Positions 6,488 to 31,851 of a stretch of DNA of 64,000 bases are shown here, piece by piece (the stretch's first letter is position 1; the number at the start of each line of letters is the position of its first letter). The notes under the pieces were generated by a model, which did not search any database, was not told the DNA's origin, and saw only the letters and a list, made by a program, of their open reading frames with translations. The position numbers and the translations under genes were made by a program. This DNA is from Nonomuraea angiospora (GTDB lineage: Bacteria > Actinomycetota > Actinomycetes > Streptosporangiales > Streptosporangiaceae): contig NZ_JADBEK010000001.1 in NCBI RefSeq assembly GCF_014873145.1, positions 10,416,001 through 10,480,000 on the forward strand, written 5' to 3'.

Positions 6488-7348
6488 TCACCCCGGTGAG
6501 TGCGCGCCGGCCGAGCCATAGCCGGCGCCCGAGGTGATGCTCAGGCGGCGCTCGCCCGTGTAGACGTTCATCGAGTTCCCGCGCAGGAACCCGATGAGCG
6601 TCAGCCCCTCCTCCGCGGCCAGTTCGACCGCGAGCGACGACGGCGCCGAGACCGCGGCGAGCACGGGGATGCCCCCCATGACCGCTTTCTGCACCAGTTC
6701 GAACGAGGCCCGGCCCGACACCATCAGCACCGTCCCCCGCAGGGGGAGCCGGTCGTTGCGCAGGGCCCAGCCGAGCAGCTTGTCCACCGCGTTGTGCCGG
6801 CCCACGTCCTCGCGCACGCACAGCGGCTCGCCGTCGGACGTGAACAGGCCGGCCGCGTGCAGGCCCCCGGTCCGGTCGAACACCCGCTGGGCCGCGCGCA
6901 GCCGGTCCGGCAGGGTGGCGACGGTCGGCTGCGCCAGCTCGACCGGGTCGTCCGCGGCGCTCCAGCGAGCCACCGTGCGTACCGCCTCCAGCGACGCCTT
7001 GCCGCAGACGCCGCAGGAGGACGTGGTGTAGAAGTTGCGCGGCGCGGGCGCGGCCACGCCGGGTGCCAGCCGCACGTCGAGCACGTTGTACGTGTTCCCG
7101 CCGTCCACCGTCGCGCCCGCGCAGTAGCGGATCGTGTCGAGGTCGTCCGCCGAGCCGACGGCCCCCTCGCTGACCAGGAACCCGGCGGCCAGGTCGAAGT
7201 CGTCGCCGGGCGTGCGCATGGTGACCGTCAGCGGCGTGCCGTCGAGGCGGATCTCCAGCGGCTCCTCGGCGGCCAGCGAGTCGATCTTGGGGATGCGGGC
7301 GGTGTCCTTGATCCGCAGGATCCGCCGTTTCACCGCGACCCTAGACAC
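6488..7348 (-). CDS. fdhD: formate dehydrogenase accessory sulfurtransferase FdhD
   Basis: 286 residues. FdhD transfers sulfur to the bis-MGD molybdenum cofactor, without which formate dehydrogenase is inactive. The catalytic cysteine motif is visible as [12 protein letters not shown] near residue 120, followed by the conserved GGLHAAGLF and [13 protein letters not shown] blocks and [12 protein letters not shown]. The GTG start at 7348 has AGGAG six to seven bases upstream. It lies 29 bp after the split FdhA Fe-S gene and closes the formate dehydrogenase operon. Confidence 0.95.
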
Positions 7349-7377
7349 GAGCGCTCCTCTCGGCCCGAGTGGGCGCC

Positions 7378-8220
7378 CTAGACATAGCCGTACCCGAAGC
7401 GGCCCTTGACGCAGAGGTTGCCCTTGGTCACCGGGTTGTCGTGCGGCGAGCTCACCTTGACGATCTTGTTGTCCTGCACGTGCAGGGTCAGGTTGCAGCC
7501 GACCCCGCAGTAGCTGCAGACCGTCGTGGTCTCGCTCTGCCGCGACTCGTCCCAGGTGCCCTCGGCCCGCATGTCGAACTCGGTCTTGAACGACAGCGCG
7601 CCCGTCGGGCACACCTCCACGCAGTTGCCGCAGTAGACGCAGGCCGAGTCGGTGAGCGGCGCCTCGAACTCCGTGGAGATCGTCGCGTCGAACCCGCGGC
7701 CCGCCACGGCGATGGCGAAGGTGTTCTGCCACTGGTCGCCGCAGGCGTCCACGCACTTGTAGCACAGGATGCACTTGCTGTAGTCGCGTACGTAGAGGTC
7801 GTTGTCCACCTTGGCGGGCTGCTCGACCGTGGCCGCGTCGTCGCCGAAGCGCGCGGGGTCGGCGCCGTACTCCTCGGTCCACTCGGCGGCGCGGGGGGTG
7901 GTCGACAGGTCCACGGAGGAGCCGAGCAGCTCCAGCACCACCTTGCGGCTCTGCCGGGCGCGCTCGGTGTCGGTGCCGACCTTCATGCCGGCCTCGGCCT
8001 TGCGGGAGCAGGCGGGCGCCAGCGTCCTGGCGCCCTCCACCTCGACGACGCAGACGCGGCAGGCGTTCTTCGGGGTCAGCGTGTCGCCGTAGCAGAGGGT
8101 GGGGATGTCCTTGCCCGCCGCGTGGCAGGCGTCGAGGATCGTCGAGCCCTCCGGCACCCGTACGTCCTCGCCGTCGATCTGGACGTCGATGAGCCGCCGG
8201 GGCGGCTGGAGCGGGATCAT
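7378..8220 (-). CDS. formate dehydrogenase alpha subunit, N-terminal Fe-S half (separate polypeptide)
   Basis: 280 residues equivalent to the first third of an FdsA-type formate dehydrogenase alpha subunit. In order: a [2Fe-2S] plant/NuoG-like domain (CYGD..., [15 protein letters not shown]); two [4Fe-4S] motifs ([11 protein letters not shown] and [16 protein letters not shown]); then the proximal cluster motif CSYCGVGC ... [10 protein letters not shown]. The protein stops three residues later, exactly where a normal alpha subunit continues into the molybdopterin domain. That domain is a separate gene two genes upstream. ATG at 8220 overlaps the stop of the beta subunit (ATGA). It carries electrons from the molybdenum site towards the flavin subunit. 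Confidence 0.88.
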
Positions 8221-10010
8221 CTGAACACTCCCAGACGGTCGATGGCCGATTCGACGGCGTTCCAGGCGGTCTGTCCGAGGCCGCAGATCGAGGCGTCCCG
8301 CATGGTCTGGCCGACCTCGCGCAGCAGCACGAGATCGTCGTCGGAGACCCGGCGCGAGAGCCGGTGCAGGGCCTCCTCCTGCCGTACGGTGCCCACCCGG
8401 CAGGGCACGCACTGGCCGCAGGACTCGTCGCGGAAGAACTCCGCGATGCGCAGCAGCAGCCGTTTCATGTCCACGGTGTCGTCGATGACGAGCACCACGC
8501 CGGAGCCGAGCGTCGCCCCCGCGTTCCTGGTGCCCTCGAAGGTGAGAGGGATGTCCAGGTCGGTGACGAACGCGCCGGCCGCGCCGCCGAGCAGCACCGC
8601 GCGGGTCGTGCCGGTGGTGCCGGTCAGATCCAGCAGCTCGCGCAGCGTCGCGCCGAACGTGAGCTCGTACACGCCGGGCCGCTCGACCGCGCCCGAGACG
8701 CAGAACAGCTTGGGCTCGGCCGCCGCGTACGCCCGGGCGCCGCGCTCCAGGATCGGCAGCACGTTGACCAGCGTCTCGACGTTGTTGACCACGGTCGGCT
8801 TGCCGAACAGCCCCTTCTCCACGGGGAACGGCGGCTTGCTGCGTGGCTCGCCCCGCTGCCCCTCGATGGAGTTGAAGATCGCGGTCTCCTCGCCGCAGAT
8901 GTACGCGCCCGCGCCCCTGCGCAGCTCGATGTCGAACGACAGGCCCTTGCCGAGGATGTCGTCGCCGAGCAGGCCCCGCGCGCGGGCGGTCGCGATGGCG
9001 TGCTGGAGCCGCGCGGTCGCCCTGGGGTATTCGCCCCTGATGTAGAGGTATCCCTTGGCGCAGCCGGTGGCGTAGGCGGCGATCGTCATCGCTTCCACCA
9101 GCGCGTACGGGTCGCCCTCCATGATCACGCGGTCCTTGAACGTGCCCGGCTCGCTCTCGTCGGCGTTGCAGACCAGGTAGTGCGGGTGGTCGGGCTGGCG
9201 CGCGGTGGCGTCCCACTTGCGGCCGGTCGGGAACGCGGCGCCGCCCCGGCCGACCAGCCCCGACTCCAGGACCTCCCGGATGACCCCGGCGGGCCCCAGC
9301 TCGAACGCCCTCCTGAGCGCGGTGTAGCCGCCGGCCGCCCGGTAGTCGTCCAGGCTCGCGGGGTCGGTCGTGCCGACCCTCCTGAGCAGCGTCAGCCCGT
9401 CCTGCCCGGCCTGCGGCACGGCCGCCGCCACCGGGGCGTCACCGGCGACGTCGAGGCTCGGGGTGGTGCCGTTGGGGGTGGGGGAGCCGAGGGTCAGGGA
9501 GGCGTTCGCGGGCGCGTACACCTGGGCCTTGGGAGGCGTGCCCGCCTCCAGGGCGAGCGCGGCGGGGGCCCGCTCGCACAGGCCCAGGCAGGGGCTCTCG
9601 TGCCACGACGTGCCGGGCGGGCCGAGCCGCTCCTCCACCTGCCTGCGTACGTCCTCGCCGCCCTTGGCCTGGCAGGCCAGGTCGGTGCAGACGTGCAGCA
9701 CCCGCTTCGGGCGCGGCTCCATGGAGAACAGCGAGTAGAACGTCGCCACCCCGTACGCCTCGGCGGGTGGCACGGTCAGGCGGCGGCAGATGTAGTCGAG
9801 CGCGCCCTCGCTGATCCACCCGACCCGGTCGTTGACCGCGTGCAGCGCGGGCAGCAGCATGTCGCGCTGGGACTCGGCGCGCACGGCCACCCGCAGGTCG
9901 GCCTCGCTCCTCCCGCCGCCGTCCCACGCCGACGCGGGCGGCCCGAGCAGGGCGTCGACGGCCGCGCGCTCCTCCTCGGACGGCTCTGCGCCGCGGAACC
10001 TCAGATCCAT
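8217..10010 (-). CDS. NAD-dependent formate dehydrogenase flavin subunit (NuoE-NuoF fusion)
   Basis: 597 residues. Residues 1-150 are a NuoE-like [2Fe-2S] thioredoxin fold (CTDLAC ... [10 protein letters not shown]). Residues 190-597 are NuoF-like, with the FMN/NAD motifs [26 protein letters not shown] and [12 protein letters not shown], and the C-terminal [4Fe-4S] motif [13 protein letters not shown]. This fusion is typical of the FdsB/FdhB subunit of cytosolic NAD-linked formate dehydrogenases, passing electrons from formate to NAD+. It sits between the two halves of the alpha subunit, four bases after the catalytic gene. Confidence 0.92.
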
Positions 10011-10014
10011 CTGA

Positions 10015-11916
10015 TCACCCGGCCTTCACGAGCTTCTCGACGCGTACGGCCGCCGCCTTGAACTCGGCGGTGCCCGCGATGGGGCAGGTGGCCTCGATGG
10101 TGAGGGAGTTGGTGTCCACTTCGTCCGGGAAGTGCATGGTCATGAACACCAGCCCCGGCCGCAGGGCGGGGTCGATGAAGACGGGCGCGACCACCGACCC
10201 GCGCCGCGAGGTGATCCGCACCTCCTCGCCCGCGACGACGCCGAGCCGGTCGGCGTCCTCGGGGCAGAGCTCCACCGTCTCGCCCCGGCGCAGGGGAGAG
10301 GCGAACCCGGAGGACTGCACGCCCGTGTTGTAGGAGTCGAGCCGCCGCCCGGTCGTCAGCCGAAGCGGATATTCCTCGTCCAGCAGGTCCACCGGCGGCG
10401 AGTGGCGCAGCACCGCGAACGGCGCCGGCGTGCCCCGCCTGACCGGGTCGCTCTCCCACAGCCTGCCGTGCAGGTAGGGCGGCTCCAGGGAGTCCTCCGA
10501 CGGGCAGGGCCACTGGATGCCCTGCAGGTCGGCCAGCCGCTGGTAGGTCATGCCGTGGTGCTGGGGCGACATGGCGCGCAGCTCGTTCCAGACCTCTTCG
10601 GCGCCGTCGTAGTGCCAGTCGTGGCCCAGCCTGCGGGCCAGCTCGCACATGATCCAGATGTCGTCGCGCGCCTCGCCCGGCGGATCGAGAGCCTTGCGCA
10701 CCCGCTGGACCCGGCGCTCGCTGTTGGTGAACGTGCCGTCCGCCTCGCACCAGGCGGCGCTCGCGGGCAGCACGACGTCGGCCATCTGGGCGGTCTTGGT
10801 GAGGAAGATGTCCTGCACGACCAGGTGGTCGAGCATGGACAGGCGCTTGATGCAGGCCAGCGAGTCGGCCTCGGACTGCACGGGGTTCTCACCGATGAGA
10901 TAGCAGGTGGTCACCTCGCCTTCGGCCATGGCCTCCAGCATCTGGGTGAGGTTGAGGCCGTAGCGCGGCTGGATCTCCCTGCCCCACGCGCTCTCGAAAC
11001 GCGCCCTGATGCCCGGGTCGAGGAGGTCCTGGAAGCCGGGCAGGCGGTTGGGGATGGCGCCCATGTCGCCGCCGCCCTGCACGTTGTTCTGGCCGCGCAG
11101 CGGCGACAGTCCGGAGCCGTAGCGGCCGACGTGGCCGGTGAGCAGCGACAGGTTGATCAGGGCCCGTACGTTGTCCGTCGCGTTGTGGTGCTCGGTGATG
11201 CCGAGCGTCCAGCACAGCTGGGCGCGGTCGGCGCGGGCGTAGGCGTGGGCCAGCTCGCGGATGGCGTGCGCGGGCACGCCGGTGACCTGCTCGGCGACGG
11301 TGAGCGTCCAGGGCTCGACCGACTCCTTGAACTCCTCGAACCCGACCGTGGCCCGCTCGATGAACGCCTCGTTGTGCAGCCCGGCGTGGATGATCTCCCT
11401 GGCCACCGCGTGGGCGAGGGGGATGTCGGTGCCCACGTTCAGCCCGAGCCACAGGTCGGCCCACTGGGCGGTGCCGGTGCGGCGCGGGTCCACCGCGAAC
11501 ATCCGGGCCCCGTTGTGGATGCCCTTCAGCACGTGCTGGAAGAAGATGGGGTGGGCGTTACGCGCCGCCGAACCCCACATCACGATCACATCGGTGTCCT
11601 CCACCTCCTGGTAGGAGGACGTGCCGCCACCGCTGCCGAACACCGCCGACAGCCCCGCCACGCTCGGCGCGTGGCAGGTGCGGTTGCAGGAGTCCACGTT
11701 GTTGGTGCCGATCACCACGCGGGTGAACTTCTGCCCGACGTAGTTCATCTCGTTGGTGGAACGGGCGCACGACAACATGGCGAAGCAGTCGGGCCCATGT
11801 GCGGCGAGGTTGCGGCGGAAGCCCTCCGCCGCCCGCTCCAGGGCCTCCTCCCAGGTCGCCCTGCGCAGCACGCCGTTCTCACGCACCAGTGGATGGGTCA
11901 GGCGGTCATAGCTCAT
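10015..11916 (-). CDS. formate dehydrogenase catalytic (molybdopterin) subunit, lacking the N-terminal Fe-S domain
   Basis: 633 residues beginning MSYDRLTHPLVRENG, the point just after the proximal cluster in full-length enzymes. The metal ligand region reads NNVDSCNRTCHAPSVAGL: cysteine takes the place of selenocysteine and is followed by the catalytic histidine. The substrate arginine lies in PLRGQNNVQGGGDMG. The C-terminal MopB/molydop-binding domain (TTGRRLDSYNTG, MHFPDEVDTN) is complete. With the Fe-S half (280 residues) it sums to a normal alpha subunit. ATG 11916 has GGAGGG upstream. Oxidises formate released from formyl-CoA to CO2. Confidence 0.93.
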   Translation of the reverse strand: MSYDRLTHPLVRENGVLRRATWEEALERAAEGFRRNLAAHGPDCFAMLSCARSTNEMNYVGQKFTRVVIGTNNVDSCNRTCHAPSVAGLSAVFGSGGGTSSYQEVEDTDVIVMWGSAARNAHPIFFQHVLKGIHNGARMFAVDPRRTGTAQWADLWLGLNVGTDIPLAHAVAREIIHAGLHNEAFIERATVGFEEFKESVEPWTLTVAEQVTGVPAHAIRELAHAYARADRAQLCWTLGITEHHNATDNVRALINLSLLTGHVGRYGSGLSPLRGQNNVQGGGDMGAIPNRLPGFQDLLDPGIRARFESAWGREIQPRYGLNLTQMLEAMAEGEVTTCYLIGENPVQSEADSLACIKRLSMLDHLVVQDIFLTKTAQMADVVLPASAAWCEADGTFTNSERRVQRVRKALDPPGEARDDIWIMCELARRLGHDWHYDGAEEVWNELRAMSPQHHGMTYQRLADLQGIQWPCPSEDSLEPPYLHGRLWESDPVRRGTPAPFAVLRHSPPVDLLDEEYPLRLTTGRRLDSYNTGVQSSGFASPLRRGETVELCPEDADRLGVVAGEEVRITSRRGSVVAPVFIDPALRPGLVFMTMHFPDEVDTNSLTIEATCPIAGTAEFKAAAVRVEKLVKAG

Positions 11917-11928
11917 GATCCCTCCATT

Positions 11929-11938
11929 CTGTATACAG
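11929..11938. promoter_or_regulatory. putative GntR operator O1 before the formate dehydrogenase operon
   Basis: Perfect 10-bp palindrome CTGTATACAG, 13 bp upstream of the catalytic subunit start and just past the end of the PanE-like gene. It shares the GTATAC half-sites of the other operators in the island and suits an FCD-type GntR protein. Confidence 0.55.
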
Positions 11939-11954
11939 GCTACGGTATTCCTCG

Positions 11955-12932
11955 CTAGACCGCGCGGACAAGGTTGGCGTTGAGGAGGTCGCTCACCGCG
12001 TGGATCGCGCGCAGCGTCGGCACCTCGGCGCCGGTGAGGTCGGCCAGCTCGACCACCGCCGCGAGCAGCACGTCCAGCTCCAGCGGCTTGCCCTTCTCCA
12101 GGTCCTGCAGCGTGGAGGTCTTGTGCTCGCCCGCCTTCTCCGCCCCCTTCAGGCGGCGCTCGATGGAGATCCCCGGGTCGCACCCGACCCGCCTGGCCAC
12201 CTCGACGGTCTCCCGCATCATGGCCACGACCAGCTCCCTGGCGCCGTCGTGGCGGCAGATCCCGGCCATGGTCGCCCTGGCCAGCGCGCTGATCGGGTTG
12301 AAGGCGATGTTGCCCATGAGCTTGACCCACACGTCTTTGCGCAGGTCGCGCTCCACCGGGCACTTGAGCCCGCCCGCTATGGCGGCCTGGCTGAAGGCGT
12401 CGCACCGCTCGGTCAGCTCGCCGTCCGGCTCGCCGATGGAGAAGCGGGTGCCCTCGAGGTGGCGGATCACGCCGGGCCGCTCGATCTCGGTGGCGGCGTA
12501 CACGACGCAGCCGACGGCACGGTTCAGGGGCAGCGCGGTCGTGACCGCGCCGCCCGGGTCGACGCTCTCGATGCGGTAGCCCTCGTAGGGGCCCTTGAGC
12601 CCGTGGAAGTACCACCACGGGATGCCGTTCTGCGCGGCGATGATGCTCGTGGCCTCGTGCAGGAGCGGCCTGATCATGGGGCCGGCGGAGGCGTAGCTGT
12701 TCGCCTTGAGGCCCAGGAAGACGTGGTCCACCGGGCCGACCTGGGTGGGGTCGTCGGTGGCATGGGGATGGGCGGTGAAGTCGCCTCGGGGGGTGAGCAC
12801 CCGCACACCGGCGCGCCGGATCGCCTGGAGGTGCTCGCCTCTCGCGATGAGGTGCACCTCGACTCCCGCCCGGTGGAGGGCGGCCCCCACGTATGCGCCG
12901 ATGGCGCCGGCGCCAAGAACAGCGACCTTCAT
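11955..12932 (-). CDS. PanE-family reductase, probable oxalyl-CoA reductase
   Basis: 325 residues of the ketopantoate reductase family: an N-terminal Rossmann motif GAGAIGAYVGA for NADPH, the conserved LKANSYAS lysine, and a helical C-terminal domain with KLMGNIAFNPISAL. Annotation pipelines would call it 2-dehydropantoate 2-reductase. In Methylobacterium extorquens a PanE paralogue (PanE2) is the oxalyl-CoA reductase that makes glyoxylate. Given its place beside frc and formate dehydrogenase, opposite the gcl operon, that role is more likely here. I chose ATG 12932 (MKVAVLGAG) over an upstream in-frame start. A GntR-type operator lies in its divergent promoter with moeA. Confidence 0.7.
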   Translation of the reverse strand: MKVAVLGAGAIGAYVGAALHRAGVEVHLIARGEHLQAIRRAGVRVLTPRGDFTAHPHATDDPTQVGPVDHVFLGLKANSYASAGPMIRPLLHEATSIIAAQNGIPWWYFHGLKGPYEGYRIESVDPGGAVTTALPLNRAVGCVVYAATEIERPGVIRHLEGTRFSIGEPDGELTERCDAFSQAAIAGGLKCPVERDLRKDVWVKLMGNIAFNPISALARATMAGICRHDGARELVVAMMRETVEVARRVGCDPGISIERRLKGAEKAGEHKTSTLQDLEKGKPLELDVLLAAVVELADLTGAEVPTLRAIHAVSDLLNANLVRAV

Positions 12933-12966
12933 GCTGCGCTCCGTTCTCGCGTCGGATTTGCATTCG

Positions 12967-12979
12967 GTATACAGTATGG
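12967..12979. promoter_or_regulatory. putative GntR operator O2 in the panE-like/moeA divergent promoter
   Basis: GTATACAGTATGG with the core ATACAGTAT at 12969-12977. It lies between two divergent starts (12932 and 13006), so it can serve both genes. Same core as sites O3, O5 and O6. Confidence 0.65.
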
Positions 12980-13005
12980 AAAAACGCGGGTCAAGGAGCA
13001 TGCCT

Positions 13006-14184
13006 GTGACCGTTCTTCGGCATGATCTAGTGGTGGAGTCGACGACCTGGGTGACCGCGCGGGCCCTCGCGAAGGGGGCCGCGGCGCCCCTGGAGCCCGC
13101 GTCCGTGCCGCTCGCCGACGCTCTCGGCGGCCGCCTGGCAGCGCCTTTGCCGGCGCTGGTGGCGGTGCCCGGGGTGGACGTGTCGGCGATGGACGGCTAC
13201 GCGGTGGCCGGTGCCGGGCCGTGGCGGGTGGTCGGCCGGGTCCTGGCCGGTGGCGCCTGCTACGGGGAGGAGCTGCGGCCAGGGGAGGCGGTCGAGATCG
13301 CCACCGGCGCTCCGGCGCCCCCGGGCGCCTTGGCGGTGCTGCCGTACGAGCAGGCCGCGGTGGACGGGGCGCGGGTGGACGGCGCCGTCGAGCCCGGGCG
13401 GCACCTGCGGCGGCGGGGCGAGGACATCGCCGAGGGCGCGGTCGTGCTGGGCGCGGGCGCGGTGGTGACGCCGGTGGCGCTCGGGCTGGCCGCCGCGCTG
13501 GGCCACGACGAGCTGCTGGTACGGCCCCGCCCGCGGGTGGCGGTGCTGATCACCGGGGACGAGGTCGTCCACGAGGGCCTGCCCGCGCCGGGCCGGGTGC
13601 GCGACGCCATCGGCCCGTTCCTGCCGGGCCTGGTGTCGTGGGCCGGCGGCCGGGTGGCGAGCACGGACCGGCTGCCCGACGGCCCGCAAGCGCTCCGCGC
13701 CGCGCTGGCGGCTGACGGGGCGGACGTGGTCGCCGTGTGCGGGGCCTCGTCCAAGGGCCCGGCCGACCACCTCAGGGCCGTGCTCGGCGACCTCGGCGCC
13801 GACGTGATCGTCGACGGCGTCGCCGTGCGGCCAGGGCACCCGCAGCTCCTGGCCCGGCTGCCGGGCGGATCGCTGGTCGTCGGCCTGCCGGGGAACCCGT
13901 TCGCGGCCCTCGGCGCGGCCCTCACGCTGCTCGCGCCCATCCTGCGCGAGCTGGCCGGGATCCCCGTCCGCACGGAGGCGTCGGCGCTGGCCGGGGCGGT
14001 GCGGGCGCACCCGCGCGACACGCGGCTCGTGCCGGTCAGGCGGTCGGGCCGGGGAGCGGTGCCGGTGGGGCACGACCGGCCGGGTTCGCTGTGGGGTGCG
14101 GCGCTGGCCGACGCGCTGGCCGTAGTCCCGCCGGGGTGGGCCGGTGAGCAGGTCGAGCTGATCGAGTTGCCTCCTGGGGGCTAG
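13006..14184 (+). CDS. moeA: molybdopterin molybdenumtransferase MoeA
   Basis: About 392 residues. MoeA inserts molybdate into adenylylated molybdopterin. Visible family motifs are VSAMDGYAV near the N-terminus, EIATGAPAPPGALAVLPYE, RRRGEDI, VLITGDEV and GLPGNPFAAL; the C-terminal domain is present. GTG 13006 is preferred because AAGGAG lies seven bases upstream; the ATG at 13000 is too close to it. In this setting it would supply molybdenum cofactor to the adjacent formate dehydrogenase, and it shares an operator with the PanE-like gene. Confidence 0.88.
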   Translation: MTVLRHDLVVESTTWVTARALAKGAAAPLEPASVPLADALGGRLAAPLPALVAVPGVDVSAMDGYAVAGAGPWRVVGRVLAGGACYGEELRPGEAVEIATGAPAPPGALAVLPYEQAAVDGARVDGAVEPGRHLRRRGEDIAEGAVVLGAGAVVTPVALGLAAALGHDELLVRPRPRVAVLITGDEVVHEGLPAPGRVRDAIGPFLPGLVSWAGGRVASTDRLPDGPQALRAALAADGADVVAVCGASSKGPADHLRAVLGDLGADVIVDGVAVRPGHPQLLARLPGGSLVVGLPGNPFAALGAALTLLAPILRELAGIPVRTEASALAGAVRAHPRDTRLVPVRRSGRGAVPVGHDRPGSLWGAALADALAVVPPGWAGEQVELIELPPGG

Positions 14185-14218
14185 ACAGGCCGAACGGGAG
14201 GGAGTAACCATTGCGTTC

Positions 14219-14237
14219 ATACGGTATGCAGTATGCG
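14219..14237. promoter_or_regulatory. putative GntR operator O3 before the ThDP enzyme-frc operon
   Basis: Two overlapping copies of the palindrome: ATACGGTAT at 14219-14227 and ATGCAGTAT at 14226-14234, ending 29 bp before the ThDP enzyme start. The first copy has the same core as O2, O5 and O6. Confidence 0.65.
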
Positions 14238-23510: not shown

Positions 23511-23605
23511 GCCAGGGGTCTGTCCTGGCTGGTGAGCCTTGTCACAGGCGCCTTCTATCCCCGTTCCTCACCGTTACTCCCGCTGCGAGCGCGGGCGGCC
23601 GTGGG

Positions 23606-24868: not shown

Positions 24869-24877
24869 ACTGTATGG
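24865..24877. promoter_or_regulatory. putative GntR operator O5 over the MFS start codon
   Basis: Perfect 13-bp palindrome CCATACTGTATGG. The MFS start codon (24866-24868, minus strand) is its outer edge, so a bound repressor would sit on the translation start. Confidence 0.7.
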
Positions 24878-24924
24878 AATATCCAGTAGACGAGAGACTG
24901 TCGAGACCCTAGACGAGGGATTTT

Positions 24925-24940
24925 CCATACGGTATACCGT
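24925..24940. promoter_or_regulatory. putative GntR operator O6 before sucC
   Basis: CCATACGGTATACCGT holds the core ATACGGTAT (24927-24935) overlapping the perfect palindrome GGTATACC (24931-24938). It lies 18 bp before the sucC ATG and over the alternative MFS start at 24928. Confidence 0.7.
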
Positions 24941-24957
24941 CTACAAAGGAGGCTCGA

Positions 24958-26088
24958 ATGGACCTGTACGAGTACCAGGCGAAGGAGCTCTTCGGGCGTC
25001 ATGGGATCCCGGTCCCGGCCGGCAGGATCGCGGCCACCCCGGCGGAGGCCCGCGCGATAGCGGCCGAGCTGAACGCGCCCGTCGTCATCAAGGCCCAGGT
25101 GAAGACCGGCGGACGCGGCAAGGCGGGCGGGATCAGGACCGCCGCCGGGCCGGTCACCGCCGAGGCGGAGGCCGAGCACGTGATCGGGATGGACATCAAG
25201 GGGCACGTCGCGCGCAGCGTGCTCGTCGAGGCGGCGACCGTGCCGTTCGAGGAGTACTACGCGGCCTTTCTCGTCGACCGGGCTGAGGGCGGTTTCCTGG
25301 CGATGGTGTCCGGCCGGGGAGGCATGGAGATCGAGGAGCTGGCCGCCACCGACCCCGACGCCCTGGTGCGGCTGCCGGTCGACCCGGTGACGGGCGTGGA
25401 CGCGGACACCGCGCGCCTGCTGGCGGCCAAGGCGGGGCTGCCCGAGCAGGCGGCTGAGGTGCTGGAGAAGCTGTGGCGGGTCCTGGTCGCGGAGGACGCC
25501 CTGCTGGTCGAGGTGAACCCGCTGATCTGCACCACCGACCAGCGCATCGTGGCCCTCGACGGCAAGGTCACCCTGGACGACAACTCCGCCTTCCGGCACG
25601 CCTGGGAGTACGGGGAGACCACCGGCAGCCTGGAGGACCGCGCCCGGGCCAAGGGGCTGAACTACGTCAAGCTCGACGGCCGGGTGGGCGTGATCGGCAA
25701 CGGCGCCGGGCTGGTCATGAGCACGCTCGACGTGGTCGCCGGGGCCGGGGCCGCCCCCGCGAACTTCCTGGACATCGGCGGAGGCGCCTCCGCCAAGATC
25801 ATGGCCGACGGGCTGGAGATCATCCTGGCCGACCCCGACGTGCGCTCGGTGCTGGTCAACGTGTTCGGCGGCATCACCGCCTGCGACGCGGTGGCCAGCG
25901 GCATCGTCACCGCGCTCGAGCTCCTCGGCGAGCGCGGCCTGGCCCGGCCCATCGTCGTACGCCTGGACGGCAACAACGCCGAGGTGGGCCGGCGCATCCT
26001 GAGCGACGCCCGGCACCCGGCGGTCCGGCAGGTCTCCACCATGGACGGCGCCGCCGAGATGGCGGCCAGACTCGCGGCAGGTGCGTGA
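24958..26088 (+). CDS. sucC: succinyl-CoA synthetase beta-like subunit (island paralogue)
   Basis: 376 residues: an ATP-grasp domain ([37 protein letters not shown]) and a C-terminal ligase flavodoxin-like domain ([35 protein letters not shown]). The family makes succinyl-CoA, or malyl-CoA in MtkA relatives. First gene of a six-gene coupled operon with hyi, garR and gcl, so it is unlikely to be the housekeeping TCA enzyme. It may supply a CoA donor for Frc or act on another acid. AAAGGAGG precedes the ATG, with the GntR-type operator just upstream. Confidence 0.85.
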
Positions 26089-26963
26089 TGGCGATCTTTC
26101 TGACCAAGGACAGCCGGGTGCTCGTGCAGGGCATGACCGGCGCGGAGGGCACCAGGCACACGGCCCGCATGCTGGCCGCGGGCACCGACGTCGTGGCCGG
26201 CGTGACGCCCGGCAAGGGCGGCCGGTCCGTGGACTTCGGCGAGCGCGCGGTGCCCGTGTTCGGGTCCGTGGCCGAGGCGATGGGGGAGACCGGGGCCGAC
26301 GTCTCCGTGGTGTTCGTGCCGCCGCGCTTCACCGGCCCGGCGGTGGAGGAGGCGGTCGAGGCCGGCATGCCCTTGTGCGTGGTGATCACCGAGGGCGTCC
26401 CCGTGCACGACGCGGTGCGCTTCCGCGCCCTCGCGCACGGCCGCACCAGGATCATCGGCCCCAACTGCCCGGGGCTCATCAGCCCGGGGCAGTCCTCGGC
26501 CGGGATCATCCCCGCCGACATCACCTCCGCCGGGCGCATCGGGCTGGTGTCGAAGTCGGGCACGCTGACGTACCAGCTCATGTACGAGCTGCGCGACCTC
26601 GGCTTCTCCACCGCCGTCGGCATCGGCGGCGACCCGGTCGTCGGCACCACCCACATCGACTGCCTCCAGGCGTTCCAGGACGACCCCGGCACGGACGCCA
26701 TCGTCATGATCGGCGAGATCGGCGGCGACGCCGAGGAGCGGGCCGCCGCCTACATCGCCGCGAACGTCAGCAAGCCCGTGGTCGCCTACGTGGCCGGGTT
26801 CACCGCGCCGGAGGGCAAGACGATGGGGCACGCGGGCGCGATCGTGTCCGGCTCGTCCGGCACCGCCCAGGCCAAGAAGGAGGCGCTGGAGGCGGCCGGG
26901 GTCCGGGTCGGCCGCACGCCGTCGGAGACCGCCCGCCTCATGCGCTCGGCGATCTCGTCATGA
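26088..26963 (+). CDS. sucD: succinyl-CoA synthetase alpha-like subunit (island paralogue)
   Basis: 291 residues with the CoA-binding Rossmann domain ([28 protein letters not shown]) and the ligase domain carrying the phosphorylated histidine in [12 protein letters not shown]. Pairs with the preceding beta subunit; its ATG overlaps the beta stop (TGATG). The substrate (succinate, malate or a C2 acid) cannot be decided from the sequence. Confidence 0.87.
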
Positions 26964-27724
26964 AATTCGCCGTCAACCTCTCCATTCTCCTCACCGACCT
27001 GCCGCTGCTGGAGCGGCCAGCGGCGGCGGCCAAGGCCGGGTTCGACGCGGTCGAGCTGTGGTGGCCGTTCGGCGTCCCCGACCCCGCGGGCGCCGAGCTG
27101 GCGGCGCTCCGGCAGGCGATCGAGGACGCCGGGGTGCGCCTGACCGGCCTCAACTTCGACGCGGGCGACATGGCCGCCGGTGAGCGCGGCCTGCTGGCCA
27201 GGCCGGACGGCTCCGCGCGGTTCCTGGCCAACATCGACGTGGCGGTCCGGCTGGCGGGCGAGCTCGGCTGCGGCGTGCTCAACGCCCTGTACGGCAACGA
27301 TCCCGGCACCGACCGGGCCCTGGCCGTGGCGAACCTGCGCGCGGCGGCCGACGCGGCGGCCTCGATCGGCGCGACCGTGGTGGTCGAATCCCTCAACTCC
27401 CACGAGAACCCGAAATATCCGATCACGTCGTCGCAGGCGGCGTTCGAGCTGATCGACGAGGTGGACCGGGAGAACGTGGCCTTCCTGGCCGACCTCTACC
27501 ACCTGCACCGGATGGGCGAGGACGTGCTGGAGCTCATCGACCGGCACAGCGCCAGGTTCGGTCATGTGCAGATCGCCGACGACCCCGGCAGGGGACGCCC
27601 CGGCAGCGGCCAAATGCCGTACGACGAGATCTTCGCCCGGCTGGCGGCGGCGGGCTACCAAGGCCACGTCGGCCTGGAGTACCGGCACGAGGGGCCGGGC
27701 GCGTTCGACTGGAGGCAGGCGTGA
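26960..27724 (+). CDS. hyi: hydroxypyruvate isomerase
   Basis: 254 residues, a TIM-barrel of the AP-endonuclease-2/xylose isomerase-like family. Motifs [61 protein letters not shown] and [11 protein letters not shown] supply the metal-binding Glu/Asp/His residues of Hyi. It interconverts hydroxypyruvate and tartronate semialdehyde, the product of Gcl. ATG overlaps the sucD stop (ATGA). Confidence 0.9.
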
Positions 27725-28581
27725 ACATCGGCTTCGTCGGCTTGGGGATCATGGGCAGCCCGATGGCGGCCAACCTCCTCAAAGCCGGACATGTCGTGAC
27801 CGGTTATGACGTGAGCGCCGAGCGGGTCGAGCAGCTCGTCGGCCTGGGCGGCAAGGGCGCCTCCGGCGTGGTCGACGCGGTCGGCGGCGCCGAGGTGGTG
27901 ATCACGATGCTGCCCGACTCGCCGCAGGTGGAGGAGGTCGCGCCGCTGATCGTCGAGTACGGCCGCCCGAACCTGCTCTACATCGACATGAGCACCATCA
28001 AGCCCGAGACCTCCCGCTGGGTGGCCGGGCGGGCGGCGGCCGCCGGCGTACGGGCGGTGGACGCCCCCGTCAGCGGCGGCGAGCGCGGCGCGATCGACGG
28101 CACCCTGTCGATCATGGTGGGCGGCGCGGCCGAGGACGTCGAGGCGGCCCGGCCCGTCCTGGGCACCCTGGGCACGACCGTCGTGCACGTCGGCCCGGCC
28201 GGCGCGGGACAGACCGTCAAGGCGGCCAACCAGCTCGTCGTCGGCGGCATCTACGGGCTCGTGTCGGAGGCGATCGTGCTGCTCGAAGCCTCGGGCGTGG
28301 ACCCCCTGGCGGGGCTGGACGTGCTCGCGGGCGGCCTGGCGGGCTCCAGGATCCTGGAGCTCAAGCGGCACACGATGGTCAGGCGGGAGTTCAACCCCGG
28401 CTTCCGGATCGACCTGCACCACAAGGACATGGGCATCGCCGTCGCCGCCGCCCGCGAGGCCGGGGTCAGCCTGCCGCTCACCGGGCAGGTCGCCCAGCTC
28501 GTGGCCGCGGCCAGGGCGCAGGGCCACGGCTCGCTCGACCACTCCGCCCTCCTGAAGGTCGTGGAAAGGCTCAACGGATGA
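27721..28581 (+). CDS. garR: tartronate semialdehyde reductase (beta-hydroxyacid dehydrogenase family)
   Basis: 286 residues with the N-terminal NAD(P) motif FVGLGIMGSPMAANLLKAGH, the substrate loop DAPVSGGERGAIDGTLSIMVGG and the catalytic lysine in GAGQTVKAANQLVVG. It reduces tartronate semialdehyde to glycerate after Gcl. GTG start overlaps the hyi stop (GTGA). No glycerate kinase is visible in the window, so that step must be encoded elsewhere. Confidence 0.92.
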   Translation: MNIGFVGLGIMGSPMAANLLKAGHVVTGYDVSAERVEQLVGLGGKGASGVVDAVGGAEVVITMLPDSPQVEEVAPLIVEYGRPNLLYIDMSTIKPETSRWVAGRAAAAGVRAVDAPVSGGERGAIDGTLSIMVGGAAEDVEAARPVLGTLGTTVVHVGPAGAGQTVKAANQLVVGGIYGLVSEAIVLLEASGVDPLAGLDVLAGGLAGSRILELKRHTMVRREFNPGFRIDLHHKDMGIAVAAAREAGVSLPLTGQVAQLVAAARAQGHGSLDHSALLKVVERLNG

Positions 28582-30299
28582 AGCGCATCCCGTGCATGGA
28601 GGCCGTGGTGGCGGTGCTGGAGTCGGAGGGGGTGGACACCGTCTTCGGCATCCCGGGCGCGGCCATCCTGCCGCTCTACGCCGCGCTCCAGCACAGCTCG
28701 ATCAGGCACGTCACCGTACGCCACGAGGAGGGCGGCACCCACGCGGCCGACGGCTGGTCCAGGGTGACCGGGAACGTCGGCGTCTGCATCGGCACCTCCG
28801 GCCCCGCCGGCACGAACATGATCACCGGCCTCTACACCGCCCTGGCCGACTCGATCCCCATGATCTGCGTCACCGGCCAGGCCGTCTCCTCCAAGCTGCA
28901 CCAGGAGGCGTTCCAGGCGGTGGACATCGTGGAGATCGCCCGGCCGGTGACCAAGTGGGCGGTGCAGCTCAAGGAGCCGGCGCAGGCGCCGTGGGTGTTC
29001 AGGGAGGCGTTCAGGATCGCGCGGTCGGGGCGGCCCGGCCCGGTGCTCATCGACCTGCCGGTGGACGTGCAGCGCGGGACCTGCCTGTACGACCGGGAGC
29101 TGGACGCGCCGCTGCCCGTCGAGGAGCCCGCGCCGCTGCCCAACGCCATTCGCAGGGCCGTGGACCTGCTGGCCGAGGCCAGGCGGCCGATCATTCTGGC
29201 CGGCGGCGGCGTGATCATCGCGGACGCGACCGACCAGTTGCGCGCGCTGGCCGAGCACCTCCAGGTGCCCGTGCAGGTGACGCTCATGGGCAAGGGCGCC
29301 TTCCCCGAGGACCACCCGCTGTTCGCGGGCATGGCGGGCATCCAGACCCAGACGCGGTGGGGCAACGCCGCGTTCCTGGAGAGCGACCTGGTGCTGGCCG
29401 TCGGGGCCCGCTTCGGCGACCGGCACACCGGCGACCTCGACGTCTACCGCCGGGGCCGCACGTTCGTGCACGTGGACATCGAGCCCACGCAGATCGGCCG
29501 GGTCTTCGAGCCCGACCTGGGGATCGTCGGGCACGCCCGGCCCGTGCTGGCGGAGCTGCTGGGCGAGGCGCGCCGGCGCGGCGGGCCGCGGCAGCCCGGC
29601 AAGTGGGTGCGGAAGGTCGCCGACCTGCGCAGGACGATGGCCCGCCGCGACGACTTCGACGACGTGCCGATCAAGCCGCCCAGGGTGTTCAGGGAGATCA
29701 ACGAGTATTTCGGCAGGGACACCACGTTCGTCACCGCCATCGGGCTCTACCAGATCTGGTCGGGCCAGTTCCAGACGACCTACCTGCCGCGCCGCTACCT
29801 GGTGTGCGGGCAGGCCGGGCCGCTGGGCTGGGAGGTGCCCGCGGCGATGGGCGTCAAGTGCGCGCACCCGGAGCGGCAGGTCGTGGCAGTGGTGGGCGAC
29901 TACTCCTTCCAGTTCCTCATGGAGGAGGTGGCGGTGGCCGCCCAGTACCGGATCCCGTTCGTCATCGTCATGATCAACAACGAGTACCTGGGCCTCATCA
30001 GGCAGGCCGAGATCCCGTACGGCATGAACTACGCCGTGGACCTGCACTACGGAGAAGGCGGCATCGACCATGTCAAGGCCATGGAGGCGTTCGGCTGCCC
30101 GGCGCGCCGGGTGGAACTGCCGGGCGACATCCGGGACGCGCTGGCCTGGGCGACGGCGGAGTCGGCGCGGGAGCGGCTGCCCGTGCTGGTGGAGGTGATG
30201 GTGGAGCGCGAGGCCAACGCCGCCATGGGGCCCTCGCTGGAGGCGATCAAGGAGTTCGAGCCGCTGCCCGAGCTCATCACCGCCGACTGGTCCGACTGA
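28578..30299 (+). CDS. gcl: glyoxylate carboligase-like ThDP enzyme
   Basis: 573 residues, aligning with E. coli Gcl throughout: FGIPGAAILPLYAAL, GVCIGTSGPAGTNMITGLY, HIDIEPTQIGRVFEPDLGIV, CGQAGPLGWEVPAAMGV, GDYSFQFLMEEVAVAAQ (ThDP site) and the Gcl-type tail IDHVKAMEAFGCPARRVELPGDI. Gcl joins two glyoxylates to tartronate semialdehyde with loss of CO2. Oddly, the position that is Val51 in E. coli Gcl (RHVEG) is Glu50 here (RHEEGG), the residue of ordinary ThDP enzymes. Function from context is still glyoxylate condensation. The start overlaps the garR stop. Confidence 0.83.
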   Translation: MKRIPCMEAVVAVLESEGVDTVFGIPGAAILPLYAALQHSSIRHVTVRHEEGGTHAADGWSRVTGNVGVCIGTSGPAGTNMITGLYTALADSIPMICVTGQAVSSKLHQEAFQAVDIVEIARPVTKWAVQLKEPAQAPWVFREAFRIARSGRPGPVLIDLPVDVQRGTCLYDRELDAPLPVEEPAPLPNAIRRAVDLLAEARRPIILAGGGVIIADATDQLRALAEHLQVPVQVTLMGKGAFPEDHPLFAGMAGIQTQTRWGNAAFLESDLVLAVGARFGDRHTGDLDVYRRGRTFVHVDIEPTQIGRVFEPDLGIVGHARPVLAELLGEARRRGGPRQPGKWVRKVADLRRTMARRDDFDDVPIKPPRVFREINEYFGRDTTFVTAIGLYQIWSGQFQTTYLPRRYLVCGQAGPLGWEVPAAMGVKCAHPERQVVAVVGDYSFQFLMEEVAVAAQYRIPFVIVMINNEYLGLIRQAEIPYGMNYAVDLHYGEGGIDHVKAMEAFGCPARRVELPGDIRDALAWATAESARERLPVLVEVMVEREANAAMGPSLEAIKEFEPLPELITADWSD

Positions 30300-30309
30300 G
30301 GAGGAGCGC

Positions 30310-31851
30310 ATGCGGCTCAAGCCGGGTACGGCCTGGCGGGACGCCTACGAACGGTGCTGTTCGGCGGCCCCCGAGGCATTCCACGACGACCGGGTGCTCA
30401 ACCACTGGGGCGGCATCTGGCACCGCGACGGGCGCCCCGTGCCCGGCTTCTCGCCGCTGGACGGCACCGCCATCGCGGGCCTGCCCCGGATCGACCGGGC
30501 GGGCGCGGGACGGGCGGTGGCGGGCGCGGTGGAGGAGCACCGGCGCTGGCGGCACCTGCCGCTCGCCGAGCGCAAGGCGATGGTGTCGGCCGCCGTCGAG
30601 TCGATGGCCGCCCACCGCGACCTGCTGGCCCTGCTGCTGGTCTGGGAGATAGGCAAGCCGTGGAAGACGGCCTGCGCGGACGTGGACCGCTGCCTGGACG
30701 GCGTGCGCTGGTACGTGGCCGAGATCGACCGCATGGTCGCCGGCCGGATGCCGCTGCCCGGGCCCGTCAGCAACATCGCGAGCTGGAACTACCCGATGAG
30801 CGTGCTCATGCACGCCATGCTCGTGCAGGCGCTGGCCGGCAACGCGGTGATCGCCAAGACGCCCACGGACGGCGGCCTGTGCTGCCTGACGCTGGCCTGC
30901 GCGCTGGCGGTGCGTGAGGGCCTGCCGTTCACGCTGGTGAGCGGGGGAGGGGCGGAGCTGTCGCCGGTGCTGGCCGGCGGGCGGGCGCTGGGCAGCGTGT
31001 CGTTCGTGGGCGGCCGGGACGCGGGGGCCAAGGTGGCGACCTCGCTGGCCGACCTCGGGCGCCGGCACGTGCTGGAGCAGGAGGGGCTGAACTGCTGGGG
31101 CGTGTGGGAGTACGGCGACTGGGAGCTGCTCACGAGGCAGATCCGGGCGTCGTTCGACTACGGCAAGCAGCGGTGCACGGCCTATCCGCGGTTCGTGGTG
31201 CAGCGGTCGCTGTTCCACGAGTTCCTGGGGGCGTATCTGGCGGCGGTGGAGTCCCTGCGGTTCGGCCATCCGCTCGCGGTGGCCGATCCCGACGATCCGC
31301 TGCCGGAGCTGGACTTCGGGCCGCTGATCAACGCCTCCAAGGCCAAGGAGCTGGCCGATCAGGTGGACGAGGCGGTGGCCAGGGGCGGGGTGCCGGTGCA
31401 CCGGGCGTCGCTCGATGCCGGACATTTCCTGCCGGGGCAGGATATTTCGGCGTATTTTGCGCCGACGGCGCTGCTCAACCCGCCCCGCTCCTCACCCCTC
31501 TTCCACGCCGAGCCGTTCGGGCCCGTGGACACCATCGTGCTGGTGGACACGGAGGCCGAGCTGCTGGCCGCCATGAACGCCAGCAACGGCGCCCTGGTGG
31601 CCACGCTGTCGTGCGACGAGGAAGAGACGTTCCACCGGCTGGCGCCGGAGGTGCGGGCGTTCAAGGTGGGGCACAACCGGCCGCGCTCGCGCGGCGACCG
31701 CGAGGAGCTGTTCGGCGGGCTCGGGGCATCCTGGCGCGGGGCGTTCGTCGGCGGCGAGCTGCTGGTGCGGGCCTCCACCGTGTCTTCCACCGGGGGCCCG
31801 GACGGCGAGCGCCTGCCGGGCAACTTCCCCCACTACACGCTGTTGCCCTAG
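30310..31851 (+). CDS. aldehyde dehydrogenase family protein with altered active-site motifs
   Basis: 513 residues of the ALDH fold: the N-terminal cofactor domain has NIASWNYPMSVLMHAM and GNAVIAKTP; the catalytic Cys is in FDYGKQRCTAYPR, and the final substrate domain is present. The usual base motif ELGGK reads LEQEGLNCWG, and the C-terminus is unusual. Last gene of the sucC-gcl operon, 10 bp after gcl, ATG 30310 with GGAGG. It may oxidise glycolaldehyde or tartronate semialdehyde, or act as an acylating glyoxylate dehydrogenase on oxalyl-CoA. The substrate is open. Confidence 0.75.
   Translation: MRLKPGTAWRDAYERCCSAAPEAFHDDRVLNHWGGIWHRDGRPVPGFSPLDGTAIAGLPRIDRAGAGRAVAGAVEEHRRWRHLPLAERKAMVSAAVESMAAHRDLLALLLVWEIGKPWKTACADVDRCLDGVRWYVAEIDRMVAGRMPLPGPVSNIASWNYPMSVLMHAMLVQALAGNAVIAKTPTDGGLCCLTLACALAVREGLPFTLVSGGGAELSPVLAGGRALGSVSFVGGRDAGAKVATSLADLGRRHVLEQEGLNCWGVWEYGDWELLTRQIRASFDYGKQRCTAYPRFVVQRSLFHEFLGAYLAAVESLRFGHPLAVADPDDPLPELDFGPLINASKAKELADQVDEAVARGGVPVHRASLDAGHFLPGQDISAYFAPTALLNPPRSSPLFHAEPFGPVDTIVLVDTEAELLAAMNASNGALVATLSCDEEETFHRLAPEVRAFKVGHNRPRSRGDREELFGGLGASWRGAFVGGELLVRASTVSSTGGPDGERLPGNFPHYTLLP

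Follow-up and report, generated by a model that had tools for sequence, protein, structure and literature searches.

The genes frc and oxc serve as markers in surveys of oxalate turnover, and among the closest described counterparts of the locus reported here are the frc-oxc loci of Oxalobacter formigenes and Escherichia coli. In methylotrophs, glyoxylate is taken by the serine cycle. PanE2 of Methylobacterium extorquens has been named a putative oxalyl-CoA reductase and characterised (passages of PMC8411744), and Tyr120, Glu121, Tyr483 and Ser553 are described as residues important in the catalysis of oxalyl-CoA decarboxylase, Oxc (passages of PMC10192776 and PMC8411744).

We analyzed a window of 64,000 nucleotides of DNA from the soil actinomycete Nonomuraea angiospora that carries an oxalate-type island of 20 genes at positions 6488-31851, called from the open reading frame list and family matches in the window sequence. 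Fourteen of these genes passed the codon-composition filter as listed, while fdhD, fdhN, fdhA, acd, sucD and hyi lay only within longer mechanical open reading frames and were called from family matches. Enzyme, transport and DNA-binding activities given below are predictions. The initial annotation had proposed that the island encodes the whole oxalate route except glycerate kinase. Most of the enzymes were present, and a glycerate kinase gene was found outside the island, at G000:C1:11797693, but the proposal had overlooked the absence of canonical Oxc, in whose place another enzyme appears to stand, so that the island departs from the textbook set of Frc, Oxc and formate dehydrogenase (FDH). 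A literature search, with most subscription journals outside it, gave no description of the island or of the replacing enzyme, which we call OxcL, among the matches listed. A repeat search of the sequence returned mostly GC-rich chance matches.

Results

A canonical Frc beside a divergent ThDP enzyme

14266..15939, + strand: oxcL, ThDP enzyme at the place of oxalyl-CoA decarboxylase; by profiles, alignment and tree it is not canonical Oxc
15967..17190, + strand: frc, formyl-CoA:oxalate CoA-transferase (TIGR03253, 677.2 bits against a cut-off of 504.2)
17259..19376, + strand: acd, ADP-forming acyl-CoA ligase, beta-alpha fusion (Pfam ATP-grasp_5, CoA_binding_2, Succ_CoA_lig and Ligase_CoA_2)

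Judged from its sequence, the island Frc is canonical. It had been annotated with its catalytic Asp, and this was confirmed by the score over cut-off and by alignment to E. coli Frc, in which Gln17, Asp169 and the glycine loop were found in 81 of 81 actinomycete Frc sequences (the window plus the 80 loci described below).

The ThDP enzyme does occupy the decarboxylase position, as annotated, but by curated model it is not Oxc, scoring 258.6-259.1 bits against TIGR03254, whose cut-off is 739.4. We rejected the idea that canonical Oxc is encoded elsewhere, since none of 14 TIGR03254 matches in a genome scan passed the cut-off. The best curated models for OxcL were acetolactate synthase-like (NF004516/PRK05858, 500.8 bits against 587), and the 2-hydroxyacyl-CoA lyase model gave 352.4 against 600, both below cut-off. 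In 16 of 16 OxcL sequences the RHE motif with the ThDP-activating Glu56 aligned to E. coli Oxc; in the same 16, Tyr120, Glu121, Tyr483 and Ser553 were absent, with Leu-Gln, NNSSMN and TMNQ instead, in an alignment whose C-terminal part is gappy. At the Glu position, several canonical Oxc rows also had Gln. In the tree, OxcL formed a single clade (100/99) outside that of canonical Oxc (100/100), with long branches.

Rather than a decarboxylase, OxcL might be of the 2-hydroxyacyl-CoA lyase/acetolactate synthase type, a carboligase or lyase that takes formyl-CoA from some other, unrecognised enzyme. Among solved structures it matched 2-hydroxyacyl-CoA lyases most closely (277.8 bits, compared with 260.8 bits for the top chain labelled Oxc), and the water-network residues of Oxc are missing from it. 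When three such positions and one other were changed in M. extorquens Oxc, decarboxylation efficiency was less than 0.2% and formyl-CoA carboligation increased (a passage of PMC8411744). Nonetheless, we consider this reading unlikely. No other ThDP gene of the genome outscored OxcL against the Oxc model, a canonical Frc would be idle without a source of formyl-CoA, and the distribution of OxcL mirrors that of Oxc, as follows.

OxcL and canonical Oxc replace each other in Frc-bearing genomes

OxcL, at 78-100% identity, was present in 29 of the 34 actinomycete genomes with Frc (raw counts across related genomes) and in none of 46 without it. The five Frc-bearing genomes without OxcL were exactly the five that carry canonical Oxc. 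Within one Streptomyces-like genus, 99 of 199 genomes had Frc (again raw counts across related genomes); 85 of these had OxcL only, 13 canonical Oxc only and one both, and neither enzyme was found in the 100 Frc-negative genomes at E<=1e-66. The exception, G497, is the sole genome of the genus with both types, and it carries them in two separate Frc pairs. Three genomes kept a frc-acd cluster without oxcL and had canonical Oxc elsewhere: 21.5 kb off in G101, where frc-acd stands with sucCD-aldh; 3.2 kb off in G480; and on a different contig in G581, where frc-acd stands with panE-fdhA.

The two enzymes replace each other in genomes with Frc, and from these genome comparisons OxcL behaves as Frc's partner. 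Because of this mutual replacement and partnership, we infer that OxcL would be a second class of oxalyl-CoA decarboxylase.

A formate dehydrogenase with a split alpha subunit

6488..7348, - strand: fdhD, FDH accessory sulfurtransferase (NF001943, 386.7 against 269 bits)
7378..8220, - strand: fdhN, N-terminal portion of the FDH alpha subunit as a gene of its own, with 2Fe-2S, 4Fe-4S and Molybdop_Fe4S4 domains (Pfam Fer2_4, Fer4, PF04879)
8217..10010, - strand: fdhEF, fusion of NuoE- and NuoF-like NAD/FMN subunits (Pfam 2Fe-2S_thioredx, Complex1_51K, NADH_4Fe-4S)
10015..11916, - strand: fdhA, catalytic portion of the FDH alpha subunit, lacking the Fe4S4 domain (TIGR01591)
13000..14184, + strand: moeA-like molybdenum cofactor gene (Pfam MoeA_N, MoCF_biosynth, MoeA_C)

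Family models recovered the FDH that had been annotated together with fdhD and moeA, with one correction: its alpha subunit is split between two non-adjacent genes. The product of fdhN covers positions 1-48 only of TIGR01591, and that of fdhA covers positions 51-672 (652.8 bits, cut-off 666.25). Among the 120 matches listed for fdhN were full-length orthologues from Nonomuraea, Herbidospora and Streptomyces. In G480, by contrast with the island, the FDH that lies near canonical Oxc is encoded in a single frame of 950 aa.

Carriers and membrane proteins

19455..20945, + strand: carrier of the Nramp fold, lacking the canonical metal-site motifs and a candidate for oxalate uptake (NF037982, 446.8 against 50 bits)
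20945..21433, + strand: small membrane protein of 162 aa, missing from the earlier gene list (tblastn matches beside nramp in loci)
21430..22419, + strand: TerC/Alx family membrane protein (TIGR03718, 375.7 against 246.4 bits)
23606..24868, - strand: mfs, MFS carrier, distant relative of OFA carriers (TIGR00890, 55.9 against 374.85 bits)

Nramp metal transporters are marked by DPGN in TM1 and MPH in TM6, and E. coli MntH shows both. The structure model of the island protein (mean pLDDT 59) had an Nramp/LeuT-type fold. GMGE stands in register with DPGN, and MPH was not seen in an alignment of 22 orthologues; since hhalign of the profile to MntH was not significant, the motifs were compared by eye, in an ungapped alignment set on the shared Gly-Pro that starts TM1. 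The possibility of sequence relatives in the PDB was rejected, with no match at 1e-3 for the single sequence or at E 10 for the profile. The slot after acd holds this carrier in the island and an MFS carrier in many relatives.

To call the island's own MFS protein an OFA-type carrier, as had been done, overstates the likeness. Besides its low TIGR00890 score, it reached 29 bits against 335 for the OFA model TIGR04259, and its best model was an L-lactate carrier (78.9 against 320 bits). The small membrane protein had no Pfam or NCBIfam match.

CoA ligases and a divergent aldehyde dehydrogenase

24958..26088, + strand: sucC-like beta subunit of an ADP-forming CoA ligase (NF001913, 452.7 against 370 bits)
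26088..26963, + strand: sucD-like CoA ligase alpha subunit (NF004230, 429.6 against 336 bits)
30310..31851, + strand: divergent aldehyde dehydrogenase (Pfam Aldedh; best NCBIfam 130.6 against 521 bits)

All the genes that had been singled out as extra to such clusters (Acd-type and SucCD-type CoA ligases, TerC, the aldehyde dehydrogenase and the Nramp-family protein) were found by family models. The solved structures nearest to Acd are 4-hydroxybutyrate and 3-hydroxypropionate CoA ligases. The island sucC scored 370.3-370.7 bits against TIGR01016 (cut-off 375.55) and is a second copy; another sucC, at C1:8929774, is over cut-off, and we rejected the reading of the island sucCD as the sole, housekeeping copy.

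CoA-acylating aldehyde dehydrogenases have lost the hydrolytic Glu268. The island enzyme had been called odd, which holds for its divergent sequence and not for its active site, where the catalytic set Asn/Glu/Cys/Glu is kept in 25 of 25 sequences. Since the Glu is kept, hydrolytic chemistry is the simpler reading, and CoA acylation was rejected as such.

PanE-like reductase and gcl-hyi-garR

11955..12932, - strand: panE-like reductase, candidate oxalyl-CoA reductase (operator-like sequence upstream at 12963)
26960..27724, + strand: hyi-like hydroxypyruvate isomerase (TIGR03234, 262.5 bits, cut-off 353.45)
27721..28581, + strand: garR-like tartronate semialdehyde reductase (TIGR01505, 329.8 bits, cut-off 340.75)
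28578..30299, + strand: gcl, glyoxylate carboligase (NF008431, 879.8 against 791 bits; TIGR01504, 697.6 against 711.2)

The annotated PanE-like reductase belongs to PanE subfamily NF005089 (435.9 against 223 bits). The three glyoxylate genes were likewise present, with hyi and garR somewhat below equivalog cut-offs, but they are not integral to the island, lying within 20 kb of frc in only 2 of 20 genomes. They also occur in loci L042 and L052 of the best 80 of at least 589 relatives. The gcl-hyi-garR block is a variable add-on.

A shared operator-like sequence and conservation of the island

22719..23462, - strand: gntR, GntR/FCD regulator, probable island regulator (Pfam GntR and FCD)
14220..14233, + strand: putative operator upstream of oxcL (exact match)
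12963..12976, + strand: putative operator shared by the divergent genes panE and moeA, lying between them (1 mismatch)
24928..24941, + strand: putative operator shared by the divergent genes mfs and sucC, lying between them (1 mismatch)
11934..11947, + strand: operator-like site upstream of fdhA (2 mismatches)
23499..23512, - strand: operator-like site upstream of gntR (2 mismatches)
24861..24881, + strand: weaker sites of the operator-like kind where mfs starts (2 mismatches each)

The single GntR regulator of the initial annotation was found as one GntR/FCD gene. The shared operator-like sequence, CATACNGTATRCNGTATG, was found 13 times over both strands with up to 2 mismatches allowed, where 0.65 occurrences were expected. 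At no more than 1 mismatch it was conserved upstream of oxcL in 34/34 Streptosporangiaceae-type loci, of panE in 30/31, moeA in 24/25, sucC in 23/23 and mfs in 27/27; the fdhA site was found at up to 2 mismatches in 17/21 loci, and the gntR site in 31/31 at up to 2 and 19/31 at up to 1. Before internal genes no site was found at up to 2 mismatches for frc (0/34), acd (0/34), nramp (0/32), fdhEF (0/20) or terC (0/32), and fdhD had one in 2/25. The motif alone is unspecific, with 24 genome-wide matches at no more than 1 mismatch versus 15 for a reversed control pattern. In 28 loci from Streptomyces and the rest, no site at this stringency was found upstream of oxcL, so the regulon in its present form does not reach there. 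An operator at the glycerate kinase gene was rejected, as its 4.1-kb locus held none at up to 2 mismatches. A common operator ties the island blocks together, and the GntR protein may be what binds it.

Conservation of the blocks in relatives, which the initial annotation had made a test of its proposal, was borne out. Both frc and acd adjoin oxcL in 80 of 80 loci (neighbors counted by tblastn); these are the top-scoring 80 of at least 589 confirmed relatives, a sample therefore biased towards close kin, and with flanks of 10 kb a gene scored absent may sit further out. In five genomes of genera g3 and g12 the split FDH, panE, gntR and sucCD are rearranged yet stay no more than about 17 kb from frc. 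Some clusters lack FDH, some panE, some Nramp and some gcl.

It is very improbable that the blocks are adjacent merely through vertical inheritance, with no single functional unit. Most of the 80 loci do come from related families with shared synteny, and gcl-hyi-garR and nramp vary; against this, the content survives rearrangement in g3 and g12, and the shared operator stands before separate transcription units and not, at up to 2 mismatches, before most internal genes. Because the content is kept in relatives and the operator exceeds expectation, the island is not due to chance, and it is very probably a coordinately regulated gene set for oxalate use, that is, an oxalate regulon.

Such a regulon could serve mainly glyoxylate/glycolate turnover, or detoxification of oxalate and acid, over growth on oxalate. 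Gcl-hyi-garR and an aldehyde dehydrogenase with the hydrolytic residue set could use glyoxylate, and E. coli has frc and oxc. For E. coli and A. aceti, homologues of oxalyl-CoA reductase are described as apparently absent and formate as something that has to be disposed of (a passage of PMC3720670). We find this improbable, since FDH, fdhD and the moeA-like gene share the island regulon, which implies that the electrons of formate are used. OxcL-Frc is, moreover, present in some Streptomyces species, and that genus includes reported oxalate degraders, a genus-level link (Sahin 2004 and Sun 2019, in a passage of PMC11347878).

Discussion

Our preferred reading, which we hold to be probable, is that a GntR protein controls the whole island as a single regulon for oxalate use, in which OxcL decarboxylates oxalyl-CoA. 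Oxalate would enter by the Nramp-fold carrier, perhaps by the MFS carrier too; Frc would exchange formyl-CoA for oxalate, giving oxalyl-CoA, which OxcL would turn into formyl-CoA; and the molybdenum FDH with its divided alpha subunit would oxidize formate to CO2 and NADH. In a side branch, by analogy with PanE2, the PanE-like enzyme may reduce oxalyl-CoA to glyoxylate, which would pass to glycerate where gcl-garR-hyi occur. Because oxalyl-CoA reduction frees CoA and opens the closed CoA cycle, ATP-dependent re-activation would be needed, and the two ADP-forming CoA ligases may supply it.

A broader proposal is more tentative, and we regard it as possible rather than probable: that in most actinomycetes with oxalate genes OxcL is a second, independently evolved oxalyl-CoA decarboxylase without the four Oxc residues, that many of them import oxalate via an Nramp-fold carrier in which an organic-acid site replaces the metal site, and that ADP-forming ligases balance assimilatory CoA. 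If OxcL is a working decarboxylase, surveys that look for canonical oxc fail to register Frc's partner in 29 of the 34 actinomycete genomes here that bear Frc. It would also offer a natural example in which another kind of ThDP active site performs the same reaction, of use given the current engineering of Oxc-type enzymes for one-carbon synthesis (a passage of PMC8411744). For the carrier, oxalate would be a second organic acid of the Nramp fold after 5-oxoproline of PxpT, and annotation of this subfamily as metal transporters would be unsafe.

Compared with O. formigenes and E. coli, the island shares a canonical Frc with its key residues beside a ThDP enzyme, and the logic of CoA cycling; it differs in that this enzyme branches apart from the Oxc clade and has none of Tyr120, Glu121, Tyr483 and Ser553, and its cluster includes ADP-forming ligases where E. 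coli has the transferase gene yfdE near frc-oxc. PxpT/YcsG, the Nramp-family carrier of 5-oxoproline operons in C. glutamicum and B. subtilis, differs from the island carrier in proposed substrate, and YcsG has also been described as a Mn importer (a passage of PMC10448178). NAD-dependent molybdenum FDH of the FdsA/FdhA type has the same 2Fe-2S/4Fe-4S, NuoE/NuoF and molybdopterin modules and FdhD, whereas in the island the alpha subunit breaks off behind the Fe4S4 domain, with the NuoEF gene between its two parts. Like M. extorquens with PanE2, the island has a PanE-family reductase in its cluster, a likeness at the level of a PanE subfamily match; unlike there, panE adjoins FDH genes under a shared operator, and in some island members glyoxylate would pass to Gcl.

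The oxalate island and its conservation

The genome of Nonomuraea angiospora (G000) consists of one contig (C1) of 13.09 Mb, of which the window covers 10416001-10480000. The predicted oxalate-use genes are arranged as follows (window positions).

6488-31851, both strands: whole island, 20 genes
within 6488-31851, minus strand: panE (candidate oxalyl-CoA reductase), fdhA, fdhEF, fdhN, fdhD (fdh, formate dehydrogenase)
within 6488-31851, plus strand: moeA, then oxcL-frc-acd-nramp-small membrane protein-terC
within 6488-31851, minus strand: gntR and mfs, after terC
within 6488-31851, plus strand: sucC-sucD-hyi-garR-gcl-aldh, after gntR and mfs

The gene in the decarboxylase position, oxcL, had frc (formyl-CoA:oxalate CoA-transferase) and acd (ADP-forming CoA ligase) beside it in 80 of 80 loci. 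Where the upstream flank reached 4.5 kb or more, in 68 loci (12 others had no room), the fetched flanks contained panE in 47, aldh and sucC without panE in 19, sucC alone in 1 and none of the three in 1. We also read the surroundings of frc in 20 genomes, to a distance of 20 kb either way or to the contig end where that came sooner. Five of these, four from one other genus (g3) and one from a second (g12), kept fdhD, fdhN, fdhEF, fdhA, panE, gntR and sucCD in a changed order, with aldh kept in 4 of the 5 and moeA in 3, and gcl-hyi-garR lay within that distance of frc in only 2 of the 20 genomes. From two Streptomyces-like genomes with OxcL (G123 and G153), sucCD and aldh were absent within up to 20 kb of frc.

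Directly beside the island, at 3066-6031, we read by eye open reading frames resembling a Fur-type regulator and a ZnuA/metal-type ABC transporter; znuA matches occurred near the island in 14 of the 80 loci. The znuA-fdhD gap (6032-6487), read in the same way, contains three near-identical GC-rich copies of ~120 bases each.

OxcL differs from canonical Oxc

Frc scored 677.2 bits, over the curated cut-off of 504.2 (TIGR03253), and its Gln17, Asp169 and glycine loop were kept in 81 of 81 actinomycete sequences. The ThDP enzyme OxcL, whose best named relatives were from Nonomuraea species (up to 97%), reached 259.1 bits against a cut-off of 739.4 for canonical oxalyl-CoA decarboxylase (Oxc, TIGR03254), and none of the 14 Oxc-model matches in the source genome was over it. 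In an alignment of 16 OxcL sequences with 12 canonical Oxc from actinomycetes and the E. coli enzyme, the GDG..NN motif and catalytic Glu were conserved in all 16 OxcL, which also shared Leu-Gln where Oxc has Tyr-Glu/Gln, NNSSMN where Oxc has NNGG(I/V)Y, and TMNQ where Oxc has ESGH. A 37-row tree with several long branches placed the 16 OxcL rows and the 13 Oxc rows in separate clades (support 100/99 and 100/100, respectively), the sister of OxcL being a paralogue from its own genome at 38-39% identity. This paralogue is a 549-aa ThDP protein at G000:C1:6239284 (locus L090), and matches like it, at 38-41%, were present in a number of Frc-negative relatives.

Distribution of OxcL and Oxc

Across 394 actinomycete genomes, Frc was over the cut-off in 34 and Oxc in 13. 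We searched for OxcL in 80 of these genomes, namely all 34 with Frc and 46 without it chosen from two families. OxcL was found at 78-100% identity in 29 of the 34 and in 0 of the 46, where the best match was 41%. The five Frc genomes lacking OxcL (G049, G101, G159, G191 and G208) were the same five that had Oxc, counts that ignore shared ancestry. The other 8 of the 13 Oxc genomes (G066, G082, G169, G179, G241, G306, G329 and G345) had no Frc over the cut-off and may use another CoA-transferase.

In the genus of G101, probably Streptomyces judging from an OxcL identity of 84%, Frc was present in 99 of 199 genomes. With the Oxc model at E<=1e-66, canonical Oxc was found in 14 genomes and OxcL-type matches <=200 bases from Frc in 84, with one genome common to both lists; one further weak match, in G420, lay away from Frc. 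Two genomes, G428 and G440, had neither at this threshold, and reading their loci revealed OxcL (80%) adjoining Frc in both. The final tally for the 99 was 85 with OxcL only, 13 with Oxc only and 1, G497, with both, as two separate Frc pairs. Neither enzyme was detected in the 100 Frc-negative genomes at E<=1e-66, a strict threshold that missed G428 and G440.

The frc-acd-mfs / sucCD-aldh cluster of G101 was intact and oxcL was absent from it: the gap between the frc and sucC matches was just 176 bases, the same gap being filled by oxcL in G057, and canonical Oxc lay 21.5 kb from the frc-acd cluster. Likewise, G480 and G581 had frc-acd without oxcL, with Oxc 3.2 kb away and on another contig, respectively. 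We read these clusters as natural replacement, the genome tallies again being uncorrected for shared ancestry. Frc was accompanied by sucCD-aldh also in the canonical-Oxc genomes G101, G191 and G208. From the distribution of the two enzymes, OxcL is probably a second class of oxalyl-CoA decarboxylase, the main surprise of the island.

In G208 (locus L201, 363-7151) and G191 (joined loci L203 and L204), two similar inverted frc copies, full in G208 and partial matches in G191, flank sucCD-aldh, and a third frc adjoins canonical oxc. Three frc genes over the cut-off occurred in 7 of the 199 genomes, 7 of 7 with canonical Oxc, and two in 5 of the 199.

A shared putative operator

The 14-base motif TACNGTATRCNGTA occurred 13 times in the window at <=2 mismatches (both strands counted), where 0.65 would be expected and none of 100 shuffles gave more than 5; 12 of the 13 occurrences fell inside the island. 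Genome-wide, at <=1 mismatch, there were 24 matches, of which 6 belonged to three island sites, versus 15 for a reversed control pattern; the motif by itself is therefore unspecific, and it is its placement that is specific. In 34 Streptosporangiaceae-type loci at <=1 mismatch, the motif lay upstream of oxcL in 34/34, of the divergent pair panE (30/31) and moeA (24/25) at one common site, and of the divergent pair sucC (23/23) and mfs (27/27) at another; at <=2 mismatches it preceded gntR in 31/31 and fdhA in 17/21. At <=2 mismatches in these loci, frc (0/34), acd (0/34), nramp (0/32), fdhEF (0/20) and terC (0/32) had no such site in front of them, and fdhD (2/25) and znuA (1/14; 0/14 at <=1) seldom had one. 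Stretches of 212 bases drawn at random from these loci gave a background of 2.1% at <=1 and 3.4% at <=2 mismatches. Among 18 Pseudonocardiaceae-and-other loci, 16 had the motif before oxcL, and 14 of 17 had it before panE (<=1 mismatch); among 28 Streptomyces-and-rest loci, it preceded oxcL in none at <=1 mismatch and in 4 at <=2. Exact or near matches outside the island, at G000:C1:3699930 and 9784515, may serve paralogous GntR regulators or mark distant members of the regulon.

Formate dehydrogenase, CoA ligases and aldehyde dehydrogenase

The FDH alpha subunit is divided between two genes, the break coming after its Fe4S4 domain: fdhN matches positions 1-48 of TIGR01591, fdhA matches positions 51-672, and the NuoEF gene stands between the two. 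Among the best 120 of 8000 scored proteins, free-standing fdhN occurred in other genera, the Streptomyces proteins (286-296 aa) matching over their whole length at 80-82% identity. The source genome also encodes a further, unsplit alpha subunit (C1:7774651, 763.9 bits), and in G480 the FDH that lies near canonical Oxc is encoded by a single 950-aa frame.

Acd passed none of its matched NCBIfam models (best 549.5 versus 1300 bits). SucC, a second copy in the genome, was just under the TIGR01016 cut-off and over that of NF001913. As a matter of bookkeeping, we propose that the two ligases would re-activate oxalate or formate once the reductase branch frees CoA. Because Asn, Glu, Cys and Glu were kept in 25/25 aldehyde dehydrogenases, an oxidising role, for example on glyoxylate, seems as likely as a reductase role.

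Comparison with known systems

The island is very probably an oxalate regulon of known kind. A 2023 OXC survey (PMC10192776) includes one all-actinobacterial group and, in its residue statistics, reports Glu56, Tyr120, Glu121, Tyr483 and Ser553 in 93.5-100% of sequences; because the surveyed enzymes keep these residues, we infer that its actinobacterial group, as that source describes it, is unlike OxcL.
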